From Buxus sempervirens (lineage: Eukaryota > Streptophyta > Magnoliopsida > Buxales > Buxaceae): a DNA stretch of 64,000 bases. Under the pieces are notes generated by a model. It worked only from the letters and a program-made list of their open reading frames with translations, was not told the DNA's origin and did no database searches. The translations under genes and the position numbers were made by a program. The stretch spans positions 6,071,883 through 6,135,882 of the forward strand of contig OX387183.1 in the NCBI GenBank assembly GCA_947561395.2, written 5' to 3'. Shown in pieces: positions 49,301-60,068 of the stretch. The stretch's first letter is position 1. Each line of letters opens with the position of its first letter.

Positions 49301-50429
49301 GAGTGATCTTTTGATGCTCCCAAAAGACATGCTTATGGACCGATCCATCAGAAAAGAGGTTAATGTTGCAGGTTTTATATGCTTGTTTTCAAAAAAAATT
49401 TGAATGATATCGTCTTTCTTAGATATTTTATTTTACTGTTCTCGTTCTAACAGGTCTGCCCATTAATTGGTCTGTCTTTGATTAAACGAATACTTTGCAA
49501 TTTTACCCCTGATGAATTCTGCCCAGATCCTGTTCCAGGAGCCGTGTTAGAGGCCCTAAATGCTGAGGTACTATTTTGTCTCTCCTCCTCAATTTCGTCC
49601 ATTTGCAGGAGTCCATGCTTTCTATAAAATATTCTGAGAGAGTTTTTCACCTAGATGTCAATTTACAGTGTGCTTAATTATCTAGCACCAACACAATGCA
49701 ATTACATGAAACTATTCCTCTTGACACCAGAAGAAACAACTGGCAAATTAATTGTCAGAAAAAAAAAATGTAAACTATGTTTAATTGCAAGTTATAATAA
49801 TCTTTATAAAGCTTAGGTGGGATTTAACATTCCTGCATTTCTTCTGTTTTTATTTCTTCTTCTACAAAACAACATTATCTCATAGCATTTGATAACAAGT
49901 AACTGCTTAATTATTGAATAAAGATTATCCAGGAGAGATATCAGCATTGGCTGATGTATATCTGATCGTGCAATTTAAAAGTCTAGTTTTCCTGTTCTAT
50001 TTTTTGTTTGGAAAAATCTGATTTTCAGTTTTTTATTTCCTTTTTCATTATGTTGGCTTGTGGATGTTCTTAATTCAGAGTGTAATCGAAAGAAGATTAC
50101 CATCAGATGGGAATTCAGTCAGCAGCTTCCCTTCTAATGCTGCCCCAGTTGTTTATATTCCCCCTTCCCCAGCTGATGTAGCAGAAAAGGTTGGAGATTT
50201 GGGAGAGAAATCTCAGTTGACAAGAACTGCATCTGACATACAAAGAGGAGGGTATACCAGTGATGAGGAATTAGATGAACTGGAATCCCCTCTGACCTCA
50301 ATAATTGACAAATTGCCGCAGTCTCCAGTTACTGGAAATGGAAATGGAAATGGAAAACGAGTCGAAAAAATGGGATCCAGTGGAGGAAATGTGAGGTATG
50401 AACTTCTTCGAGAGATCTGGTCATTGTGA
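46306..50429 (+). CDS. Gar2-related-like protein, function unknown
   Basis: Seven coding exons (46306-47387, 47493-47790, 48460-48669, 48875-49048, 49161-49358, 49454-49567, 50079-50429) join in frame to 808 residues. The first half is charged and low-complexity (Ser, Lys and Glu runs, such as KSSLNSPKKSSKSNRGSSK), followed by a short coiled coil (IEEIKLRIEKLEEELREIAA, about residue 275 on). The second half is a conserved helical region with LTFWLSNIIVLREIV, ESVWWQTLTPHMQ, DAFQRLCPVRAGGHECGCLP and LLREIWSL. This C-terminal part also resembles plant EEIG1/EHBP1-type proteins and possibly a DIL-like fold. It matches Arabidopsis At2g42320/At3g57780, labelled 'nucleolar protein gar2-related' on weak grounds. 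I do not assign a biochemical role. The ATG at 46306 was chosen; the frame is open upstream into the presumed intron. Confidence 0.85.
47985..48140 (+). mobile_element. SINE-like fragment in intron 2 of the gar2-like gene
   Basis: 'ggggctgctagcgtgagaaa', 'caggttcaatgct' (box-B-like) and 'agccaccttgcac' occur in the same order as in the SINE-like stretch at 25845-25985, followed by a diverged 'accctgcctc' tail. Confidence 0.45.
48188..48409. mobile_element. hAT-type MITE in intron 2 of the gar2-like gene
   Basis: The ends CAAGGTTCCAAAACTCAG and CCGAGTTTTTGAAGCCTCG are imperfect inverted copies. The flanks CAAAATTA (48180-48187) and CTAAATTA (48410-48417) match at 7 of 8 bases. The body has 'ggccgatatc' and 'gagttgactcag' words in both orientations. 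The ends relate it to the CAAGGTTT family. Confidence 0.7.
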
Positions 50430-51304
50430 TTCGATATGCATTGTTACTCCGCTTGTATAAAAAATATATAGATATGGAAAGGACATGAAAAATAAGAGAG
50501 AACATTTTAGTGCAGAGTTAGTAGATGATTTACGGACAGGTCTTACGAATGTCTCAAGCATATTTTTTGACTTTTTCCCTTGATGTACGTATATCAGATG
50601 GCCTCTTCATCAATTGAAATTTTGCTCCAAAATTTCAATGTGTTCTGTAGTTTTGCTTATACGTAAGAGAAAAAATATGTTTCTGTAGTTTGAAAAAAAA
50701 ACTTATCTACTACTTGTTAGTCAATGCTTTAGAGGCCGTTTGGTAACGTTTTTTTTTAAAACAGTTTGAAAACCAAAAACAGTTCTAACTGTTTTTGGGT
50801 TTTTGAAAACAAACGACAAGAAACCCGTTCGATAACAATCACTGTTTTTTAGGTTTTTGAAAACAAGTTACAAAAAACCTGTTTGGTAACAATTAAAGGT
50901 TGAAACAAAGAAAAATGAACTCCAACACGTACCTTCCATGGAATGGAGAAGCGCGTAAAGAGATTTTTACACATTACACAAGAATGGTACATTGTGCAAA
51001 ATTTATTGAGAGGCGGTTTTTTTAAATTTTCCTAGCATTTTCTGCCGCCCTAACCCAAACTTATTATCCAACCTAAACTTTATTATTTAAGTTCCAATTA
51101 GGTTTGGTTTGGCCCAAACAAAATGTCATTTTTTTTTATTCTGTTTCATTTATTTTATTTTGCTATGAATGGTCATGTTGGGATATCACATTTATTGCAT
51201 TATACCTTTTTCAAATTATTTATTTGAGAAAAAAATTCACTTGCATAATGAATCAATCGCAGCTATAATCACAGATGAAATTGCAACAAAGTCAACAACT
51301 ACAC

Positions 51305-51473
51305 TCTCCAATCTCATTGCGTTATAGACCTCCAATGCTTCCTCTAGCATCCCGTTCTGTGAATAGCCCATTAACAATGGACACAACATCTCTCACGGGC
51401 ATTTGATCGAACAATAAACGTGCACCATCAACCTGTGCATTTTTTCATGTACATGTCAATCAACCCGACAGCA
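51305..51473 (-). pseudogene. PPR repeat fragment, antisense, frameshifted
   Basis: On the minus strand, in three frames, one reads LIDMYMKKC, then VDGARLLFDQMPVRDVVS, then MGYSQNGMLEEALEVYNAM. This is one and a half PPR units in the right order with two frameshifts. It lies head-to-head with the DYW fragment that starts just after it on the other strand. Confidence 0.8.
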
Positions 51474-51477
51474 ATGA

Positions 51478-51764
51478 AACCTAGGGGGTATGTACCAGAC
51501 ACTTCAGTAGTGCTGCTTGACATGGATGAGAGTGAGGAGTGTGTTCTTTATCGCCATAGCGAGAACTTGTACTTGTTTTTTGGGCTACTGAACACACCGG
51601 AGGGTCCACCGATTAGGATCACGAAGAACCTCCGTGTGTGCGAGGACTACCTTGCTGCTTTGAAGCTTGTGTCTAAAATTGTTGATAGGGAGATAGTTGT
51701 GCGTGATCGGAACCGTTTCCATTGTTTCAAACATGGTTCTTGTTCTTCCAGGGATTATTGGTAA
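51478..51764 (+). pseudogene. DYW-domain fragment of a PPR gene, inactive
   Basis: The frame reads KPRGYVPDTSVVLLDMDES, RHSENLYLFFG, PIRITKNLRVCED, VDREIVVRDRNRFH and ends SCSSRDYW. The HxE residues remain, but the CxxCH zinc site reads CEDYL and the final CSCRDYW has become CSSRDYW, so editing activity is not expected. It lacks all upstream PPR units in sense. It differs too much from the PPR gene at 22341-25294 to be its recent copy. Confidence 0.85.
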
Positions 51765-52136
51765 TGATTTCATCTCAAACGTCTTCATAACCACTATCTG
51801 AACGGCATAGAATAATAGAAATCGAGGGCATGGTTGCTATTGTAAAAAGAGGGAAAAATTTTGCAAGGGACTCATCCTGATTCATGGCTTGGAATGAGTG
51901 TCAGTCTCCAGCCTAAGTTCTGGTTGATGGACGGGTATTCAGTACAGTTTTGAATGAACAATTGCAGAGACAGGAGGGAGGGACTGACTATAGGAAATCA
52001 TCTCCGAAGGATCGAGGTTTAAGTTCCTATCCCAAACCTGTTTTCAGGCCGGTTTTCACAGGTTGTTAAGTGGTTCTGAAGTTGATCACCAGCGTTGCTA
52101 TTTTATGGTTGCAAATAAGAGAGAGGAGTTTCCGCC

Positions 52137-52259
52137 ATGAACGGTAGTGGATATAGCAGAATTGAATCCGAGTATATACGCAGACACCATGAACACAAGA
52201 CAAGGGAGAACCAGTATAGCCATGCCCTAGTTAAACATATCAGAGTTCCCGTTCATATC
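52137..52259 (+). pseudogene. Orphan first exon of a PYL-type ABA receptor
   Basis: From the ATG the 41 codons include ESEYIRRHHEHKTRENQ and HALVKHIRVPVHI, matching the N-terminus of PYL7-10-class abscisic acid receptors. Immediately after comes GTAAGA, a good splice donor at the place where I expect the first intron in that class. No second exon (the VWSLVRRFDQP region) is found downstream on either strand in this window. It lies inside the element at 50732-52597 and is most simply a captured fragment. Confidence 0.8.
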
Positions 52260-53041
52260 GTAAGATCGCTTTCTATCAATTCATCGGCTTTTCCTTGCAA
52301 TCATTTGCTGAAGATCAGGTTTCAGCACTTGACAATGGAGGAAGAGAACTGAAAGTCGGGGAAGTCGATTGGAGTCGAGATGAATCAAATTGGAATATTA
52401 CAAAATTGCCACAGTTAAAAAACGCAGAAAACGGTTTTTCGTTTTCAGAAACCGATAATTTGGGTTTCTGAAATCTGGATGTTTTTGAAACCGTTTCTTT
52501 TAAAAACAATTTGGAAACCATTGATGCCAAACATGTTTCCGGTTTTCTGTTTTCAAAAACAGAAAAACCGTTTCTCGACACGTTACCAAACACCCTCTTA
52601 GATGAATGGATCACCCAATAAAAAATACCTGATTTTTTGGGGGTATCTAGAGGGGAATTTAGAATCACACTGCAAAACATCTAAATATTTTATCCAAAGT
52701 TACGAGTACACCATATCCCAAGTCAGATATGAGTTCTTTTGGTCTCTCTTTCATCTTCTTATATCATGTATTATCATATCATTTACACCTTATATTGCCA
52801 TATTATTTGAAATTTTGGATCAAAAGAGTACGGTTCTGCCCTTATAGTTTGATTTCATTTGAGCTTTTAGTGGTCCCAGTTATGGGTAAAAAAGATAATA
52901 TTGTATTGGGTTGGCAGTAGGCATAAAATCGCTGCTAAATCATTATAGACATGAATTTTCTAACTTAATTTATAATTCCTGAATTCTCTTTTCTTTTTTC
53001 CCTTTCAATTTTTTTTGGTTTTTACCATCTATACTCCATAG

Positions 53042-53349
53042 CAAGGTTTACAGTTTCGGCTGCCGAAATTTCGATTTTTATACCCCTAACGATGTGTTTC
53101 GCTGGGGAAAATCGTTAATTTGCAACGTTGGCGAAACGGACCGAAATTTCGAACGAAACGGGTGGTGTGCCGAGCGAAACGGACCGAAACAGAGAAAAAA
53201 ATGTAAATTTTTTAAAAATTTTTTTTAACGAAATGGGCAGCGTGCCATCCAAATTTCGCCGAAATTCAAAAAAACATGATTTTTTATTTATTTTTTTTGC
53301 CCATTAAAAATTTTCCGACGTTTCGGCGGCACCGAAACTTAAAACCTTG
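53042..53349. mobile_element. hAT-type MITE (CAAGGTTT family), copy 2
   Basis: The ends CAAGGTTTACAGTTTCGG and CCGAAACTTAAAACCTTG are inverted copies, flanked by the perfect 8-bp duplication CTCCATAG (53034-53041 and 53350-53357). The 308-bp interior has the same 'gccgaaatttcg' and 'ggcgaaacgg' words as the copy at 37924-38258. Confidence 0.88.

Positions 53350-53581: not shown

Positions 53582-60068
<6,487 letters not shown>

Follow-up and report, generated by a model that had tools for sequence, protein, structure and literature searches.

The closest described systems are the Pack-PIF elements known in maize and rice (Gisby and Catoni 2022, PMC8903248). These are non-autonomous elements with PIF/Harbinger ends, TTA or TAA duplications, gene pieces inside and several copies, all of which apply also to the element described below. 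Maize cluster 18, in which a 163-bp piece was followed by one of 58 bp from a second gene, is a case of stepwise internal gain. In comparison with these maize and rice examples, our element differs in that three gene pieces appear to be nested, one of them including promoter and exon 1 as well as the splice donor, in that the two known parents are on different contigs, and in that related elements keep stages. In grapevine the PIF family Pifvine-3 contains transduplicated exons and introns, and the CACTA element Cactavine-5 a piece of a PPR gene in opposite orientation (PMC2528002, 2008). These provide precedents for gene pieces in PIF elements, for an antisense PPR piece in a DNA transposon and for transposase-bearing elements with a gene piece, comparable to three elements found here (L053, L055 and L057, see below), whereas our element is devoid of transposase and the grapevine PPR case is a CACTA element.

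In animals, Pack-TIRs are TIR elements filled with host DNA, for which a model of gap filling and template switching was put forward (PMC8277862, 2021). The filling with host DNA is similar here and the capture model that we prefer is taken from there, but 56.9% of the animal Pack-TIRs, according to the same source, lie within 15 kb of the parent while both known parents of our element are located on other contigs. The word Harbinger has 0 occurrences in the main text of PMC8277862.

No report of this particular element was found in the open-licence literature. The class is already known, from the maize and rice Pack-PIFs and the PIF gene pieces of grapevine, and the element is a further member of it. 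As in Pack-MULEs, short ends ferry gene pieces. Pack-MULEs have long ends and duplications of the 9-bp type, and belong to a superfamily other than that of the short-ended element with 3-bp TTA/TAA duplications presented here.

The element in the window and its copies

The window (the whole stretch of 64,000 nucleotides analysed, on contig C3) contains at positions 50732-52597 a complete non-autonomous PIF/Harbinger element of 1,866 bp. Its features are listed below in window positions; "el" denotes positions within the element and L numbers are fetched loci, L014 being that of the PYL gene on C9.

50729..50731, no strand: left target-site duplication TTA (single TTA at the C19 and C1 empty sites)
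50732..50748, plus: left terminal inverted repeat GAGGCCGTTTGGTAACG (repeat pairing; 241 exact genomic matches behind TWA, control 0)
50732..50894, plus: left terminal region, ~163 bp (common to same-ended elements with other cargo and to transposase-bearing elements)
50899..51240, plus: piece captured from the PYL gene promoter (81% identity with L014 reverse strand 1001-1355)
51241..51478, minus: captured antisense PPR gene piece, left half (Pfam PPR 2.6e-6; part 77-83% to the C21 relative)
51474..51939, plus: piece captured from the 3' end of the PPR-DYW gene on C8 (87% identity)
51944..51998, minus: other end of the PPR piece, cut off from the left half by the DYW insert (91% identity with C21)
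52023..52294, plus: piece captured from the PYL gene on C9 (89% identity), from the leader through exon 1 and the splice donor to the beginning of intron 1
52295..52597, plus: right terminal region, ~303 bp (common to same-ended elements of other cargo)
52581..52597, minus: right terminal inverted repeat (15/17 matches to the left repeat)
52598..52600, no strand: right target-site duplication TTA (read in the sequence)

The inverted repeats (50731-50749 and 52580-52598) are 89% complementary over 19 nt, with a core of 17 bp. An earlier note on this DNA had described inverted ends of 17 bp with 15 matches, TTA on both sides and no transposase inside; sequence and repeat pairing bear out the ends, and none of 10 window frames compared with Pfam (all frames of at least 60 aa plus two shorter ones) matched a transposase family. 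The three inner pieces that it listed (antisense PPR, sense DYW and sense PYL exon 1) were also found, the first two by Pfam and the third by its parent gene, and the PYL promoter piece at 50899-51240 and the far side of the PPR piece at 51944-51998 had been overlooked.

Some 300 bp upstream of the element a plus-strand frame ends with its stop codon at 50426. Beyond the right side of the element there is a minus-strand frame (53585-53866) that we take to be ribosomal protein L31. No broken reading frame was seen at the insertion. Short repeats CGAAACGG / GAAATTTCG, detected by eye at 53100-53330 to the right of the element, resemble another small repeat element.

At least six full-length copies, including the one in the window, are present in the 676.5-Mb genome, to judge from its genes that of a plant (whole-element search, best 40 of 1,855 candidates scored; best 150 of 405 in a further genome search; all whole-genome counts are lower bounds). 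The other five, at C15:1179836, C1:62267796, C8:38716193, C1:1511922 and C14:8827845, are 97-98% identical to the window copy, and all six have identical TTA or TAA flanks on both sides. The copies differ from each other by 2.1% on average (range 1.2-3.1%) while the cargo is only 81-89% identical to its two known parents, so the spread looks younger than the captures. The window copy is inserted in a repeated stretch of roughly 340 bp that is present also on C19 and C1 without the element. Joining 120 bp from each side of every copy with one TTA/TAA, and scoring the best 40 of 1,388 candidates, we found for five of the six copies an empty place related to the target site, with one TTA/TAA; such places are no alleles but sequences resembling the flanks at other positions of this genome. 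Seven empty sites were fetched, two of them for the window copy (C19 and C1) and two for the copy at C1:62267796 (for which many more were listed), and all seven have a single TTA or TAA at the join, with identities of 84-98%. For the copy at C1:1511922 no match spanning the join was found among the matches listed. The element has been mobilised as one unit.

Same-ended elements and transposases

A genome search with the element ends for further TTA/TAA-flanked copies had been suggested by the earlier note; the exact 17-base left terminus behind TTA or TAA (TWA+GAGGCCGTTTGGTAACG) has 241 occurrences in 676 Mb, against 0 for the reversed-pattern control. A search of the genome with the transposase family PF13359 (best 150 of 614 candidates scored) listed many Harbinger-type matches, one of them ~0.4 kb from a 93% left-end match with the exact terminus. 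This locus, L053 (C3:15781196-15784484), is an element of 3,289 bp with TAA on both sides and a DDE_Tnp_4 domain (PF13359, E 5.3e-12), and its ends match those of the window element at 93% over 163 bp (left) and 74% over 230 bp (right). L055 and L057 are 98-99% identical to it over ~2.6 kb, with one recognisable end each, and L056 is 94% identical over 1.8 kb, with only the left end recognisable (PF13359 E 4.8e-12). In the relatives examined the transposase frames are split, by introns or damage, and not clearly intact, and no Myb-type/SANT-like ORF1 was detected in the six non-transposase frames of L053 and L056 that were scanned. Taken together, the terminus and transposase searches place further putative transposases (PF13359 matches) ~525 bp inside exact left termini at C1:9180265, C3:32598353 and C9:22451474. 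The TTA/TAA duplication, the short inverted repeats and the same-ended relative with a DDE transposase place the element in the PIF/Harbinger superfamily, and its host-gene pieces with parents elsewhere, its lack of a transposase and its mobilisation as a unit make it a Pack-PIF. Movement in trans by a PIF/Harbinger transposase, probably the DDE transposase of the same-ended relatives, is well supported by this structure.

Ahead of the transposase gene of L053, L055 and L057, where ORF1 might be expected, there is a sense PPR-like stretch (Pfam PPR_2 E 8e-9 in L055; E 0.04, below the cut-off, in L053). Another PIF element, L054 (C9:47594800-47600200), with transposase and a Myb/SANT ORF1 (PF12776 E 2.8e-8), lies ~8 kb upstream of the PYL start codon; as a source of our element it was rejected, with no matching ends in the 5.4 kb fetched.

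Twelve further same-ended loci were fetched (L018, L019, L022-L031). Both termini could be identified by pattern in seven of them, always with matching 3-base flanks (TTA/TAA in six and TGA in one). The interiors of these seven and of L025 are unlike the cargo of the window element and form four groups, L018/L022, L023/L024/L025, L026 and L027/L028, while L019 and L029-L031 were left unassigned. The two copies of the first group are 98% identical and carry an antisense piece of the N-terminus of ALMT, a malate transporter (E 6e-9). The interior of L026 gave a weak LRR signal below cut-offs, and in the L023/L024/L025 and L027/L028 groups no Pfam match was obtained with the one protein tried per group. 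In addition, facing pairs of exact left termini 1.2-1.4 kb apart (for example C1:68271374/68272729, C6:45838305/45839537 and C8:22626365/22627686) are possibly further elements of the same group with other cargo.

Origin and arrangement of the cargo

The earlier note had proposed aligning the inner pieces to their parental genes, and this succeeded for the PYL and DYW pieces, the parents of which are on C9 and C8 respectively, but not for the antisense PPR piece. Two separate parts of the element come from one gene on C9: el 168-509 matches its promoter region and el 1292-1563 its leader, exon 1, donor and start of intron 1. This parent is an intact PYL-type ABA-receptor gene with three exons, of which exon 1 matches PYL10 and PYL9 in PDB (E 3.7e-12 and 1.3e-9) and exon 2 matches PYL9 (E 9.7e-39). 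The element frame at 52119-52349 has no Pfam match, and the identification of 52137-52259 (from the ATG at 52137 to the last coding base before the splice donor GTAAG at 52260) as PYL exon 1 derives from these matches of the parent. Since intron and promoter sequences are both included, genomic DNA rather than mRNA was copied. The promoter stretch partly overlaps dispersed repeats matched at many places (about L014 reverse strand 1142-1906), so that the evidence for its assignment is an identity of 81% across 342 bases of the element, ~140 of them outside the repeat. The promoter of the intact PYL gene itself contains (L014 reverse strand about 1588-1906, C9) a dispersed repeat of ~320 bp that is 97-98% identical to copies on C3, C6 and C19 and falls in the part missing from the window element.

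The DYW piece (el 743-1208) matches the last part of, and the DNA downstream of, a PPR-E-DYW gene on C8, an uninterrupted gene of 632 aa. It includes the last ~97 codons up to the stop TAA at 51762-51764 followed by ~175 bp of downstream DNA, and the sense frame at 51375-51761 matches DYW_deaminase with an E value of 1.2e-33 (Pfam). PPR coding sequence is found in antisense within el 510-742 (51237-51389, Pfam PPR E 2.6e-6). The C8 gene was discarded as its source, BLAST having matched it only to el 743-1208 and otherwise to 14-21 bases at E 0.2-0.7. Of 10 genome matches to the antisense piece, nine belong to the element family; the other, a frame at C12:36846583, was rejected as parent at 46% amino acid identity over 37 residues. 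The PPR parent may be lost, too diverged or missed. The earlier note had considered the cargo as parts of two unrelated gene families, with one of them joined in inverted order; the capture of PPR and PYL pieces stands, but three genes are involved and the antisense PPR piece is not a flipped part of the DYW gene.

The pieces appear to be nested and not lined up, the DYW piece within the PPR piece and the PPR piece within the PYL piece. An older relative on C21 (L052, C21:23.004-23.005 Mb) has the same left end, then a PYL promoter stretch (L014 reverse strand 903-1076) that starts further out than in the window element, and then the PPR piece without DYW. At the position where the window element changes over to DYW, L052 simply continues, and the far part of the PPR piece (el 1213-1267) comes ~140 bp on. 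Open frames of 583-973 aa at no fewer than 22 other places match the minus-strand translation of L052 (best E 2.4e-7, best 150 of 427 candidates scored), and all 22 alignments begin between residues 7 and 15, ahead of residue 20, which corresponds to the switch to DYW; PPR profile matches in this stretch were below the Pfam cut-offs (best E 0.016). Other relatives differ in what they hold. L009 and L010 contain all three pieces, with 77-89% identity to the window element depending on the piece, but are without el 262-563. L011, L012 and L017 have in common the left PYL shell, with one common break after which another sequence follows, and PYL exon 1 is kept on the right in L011, L012 and L013. 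The match of L016 ends at el 974. The different insert in L011, L012 and L017 suggests that the PYL shell was filled more than once. Together with the C21 relative, in which PPR is present without DYW, this points to a cargo gained stepwise and inward, in what we infer to be at least three steps. The evidence for this order comes from a single decayed relative, that on C21, in which the DYW piece might alternatively have been lost by an exact deletion. An intact early stage with an uninterrupted PYL stretch was not found among the 51 matches listed (best 40 of 700 candidates scored). The parents have diverged 10-20% from the cargo, which blurs any micro-homology at the junctions.

Capture, spread and significance of the cargo

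We consider it very probable that this is a Pack-PIF dependent in trans on the transposase of same-ended relatives, the cargo of which was gained from the outside in by repair filling and is most likely inert. A stretch of the PYL gene, from the promoter into intron 1, would have entered the element in a first step, a PPR piece would then have been inserted in reverse orientation within it, and finally the 3' end of the unlinked PPR-DYW gene within the PPR piece, each gain at the expense of part of the filler already present. Most probably a break or gap within the element was repaired each time, with foreign DNA copied in as filler by gap filling and template switching. The finished element would then have been amplified to six copies by cut-and-paste at TTA/TAA.

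A rather unlikely alternative is that the cargo of the same Pack-PIF was obtained by fusion of neighbouring insertions, two elements flanking gene DNA being mobilised together. This is the model of Catoni et al. 2019, presented with a maize Pack-PIF example in section 9 of PMC8903248. The genome does have raw material for it, since at L013 (C15:37612550-37615687, reverse strand about 1968-1975) two elements of the same family stand back to back with one TTA between them, and a second left end is found downstream in L016. However, no remnant of an internal end was detected in the middle of the element (el 261-1558, blastn with E up to 0.1), two of the pieces have their parents on separate contigs (C9 and C8), and the newest piece appears to be surrounded by an older gene piece instead of by two element ends. 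It is this last position, along with the lack of end remnants, that makes us prefer repair filling. Pursuing the repair reading further, and much more tentatively, the PIF/Harbinger interior might be a repeatedly refilled repair pocket into the middle of which unlinked genes are copied, with the newest innermost. The family could then, with a similar reserve, preserve the stages: a PYL shell with one insert, with PPR, and with PPR plus DYW.

As for the cargo itself, the proposal that it is functional, through chimeric transcripts or through small RNAs that regulate the DYW or PYL parents, seems to us improbable. In its favour, a promoter piece, exon 1 and a splice donor were captured in sense; exact runs of 58, 36 and 35 nt are shared with the DYW parent, and two runs of 37 nt with the PYL parent; five of the six copies have an open DYW frame of ~130 aa; and variable sites, which are spread over all segments at densities of 3.4-8.6%, are scarcest in the DYW coding piece (3.4%). 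Nevertheless, the DYW frame accumulated among the six copies 4 synonymous against 7 non-synonymous changes plus 8 deleted bases, and all six have CEDYL where the parent has CEDCH and CSSRDYW where it has CSCRDYW. Zinc-binding residues therefore look lost. A role of the DYW piece as a protein was rejected on copy variation and altered residues. The PYL frame is also open in five of six copies, and its exon 1 shows 3 synonymous and 2 non-synonymous changes among them, the synonymous fraction expected without constraint being 0.22 for DYW and 0.19 for PYL exon 1; with so few changes constraint is neither shown nor excluded. Between the parent and each of the six copies, 3-4 changes fall in synonymous and 8-10 in non-synonymous codons of PYL exon 1. 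Overall, frames, substitutions and residues in the six copies gave no sign of cargo working as a protein. The antisense RNA against PPR genes envisaged in the earlier note lacks a close target in the genome search, the best match outside the element family being the frame at C12 mentioned above. Trans-acting small RNAs on the DYW and PYL parents are conceivable from the exact runs of up to 58 and 37 nt, but inert passenger DNA is most likely what the cargo is.

Finally, two separate MITEs flanking ordinary gene debris, the case that the earlier note had set against its own reading, are ruled out even though such ends are common (241 exact left termini), because the whole unit recurs six times, each with its own duplication, five of the six copies have empty sites without the whole unit, and there are no internal ends in the middle of the element. 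These same observations, with the same-ended transposase relative, agree with the view of the earlier note that one PIF/Harbinger-like element captured PPR and PYL pieces.

Two intact parents, staged relatives, a same-ended relative with transposase and empty sites make an unusually complete set. The copies hold sequences of a DYW domain and of a PYL exon, and gene-finding programs may count them as genes. The family can be used to tell repair filling from the fusion of neighbours, and repeated refilling of the interior, if true, would speak strongly against neighbour fusion for the capture of unlinked genes in plants.
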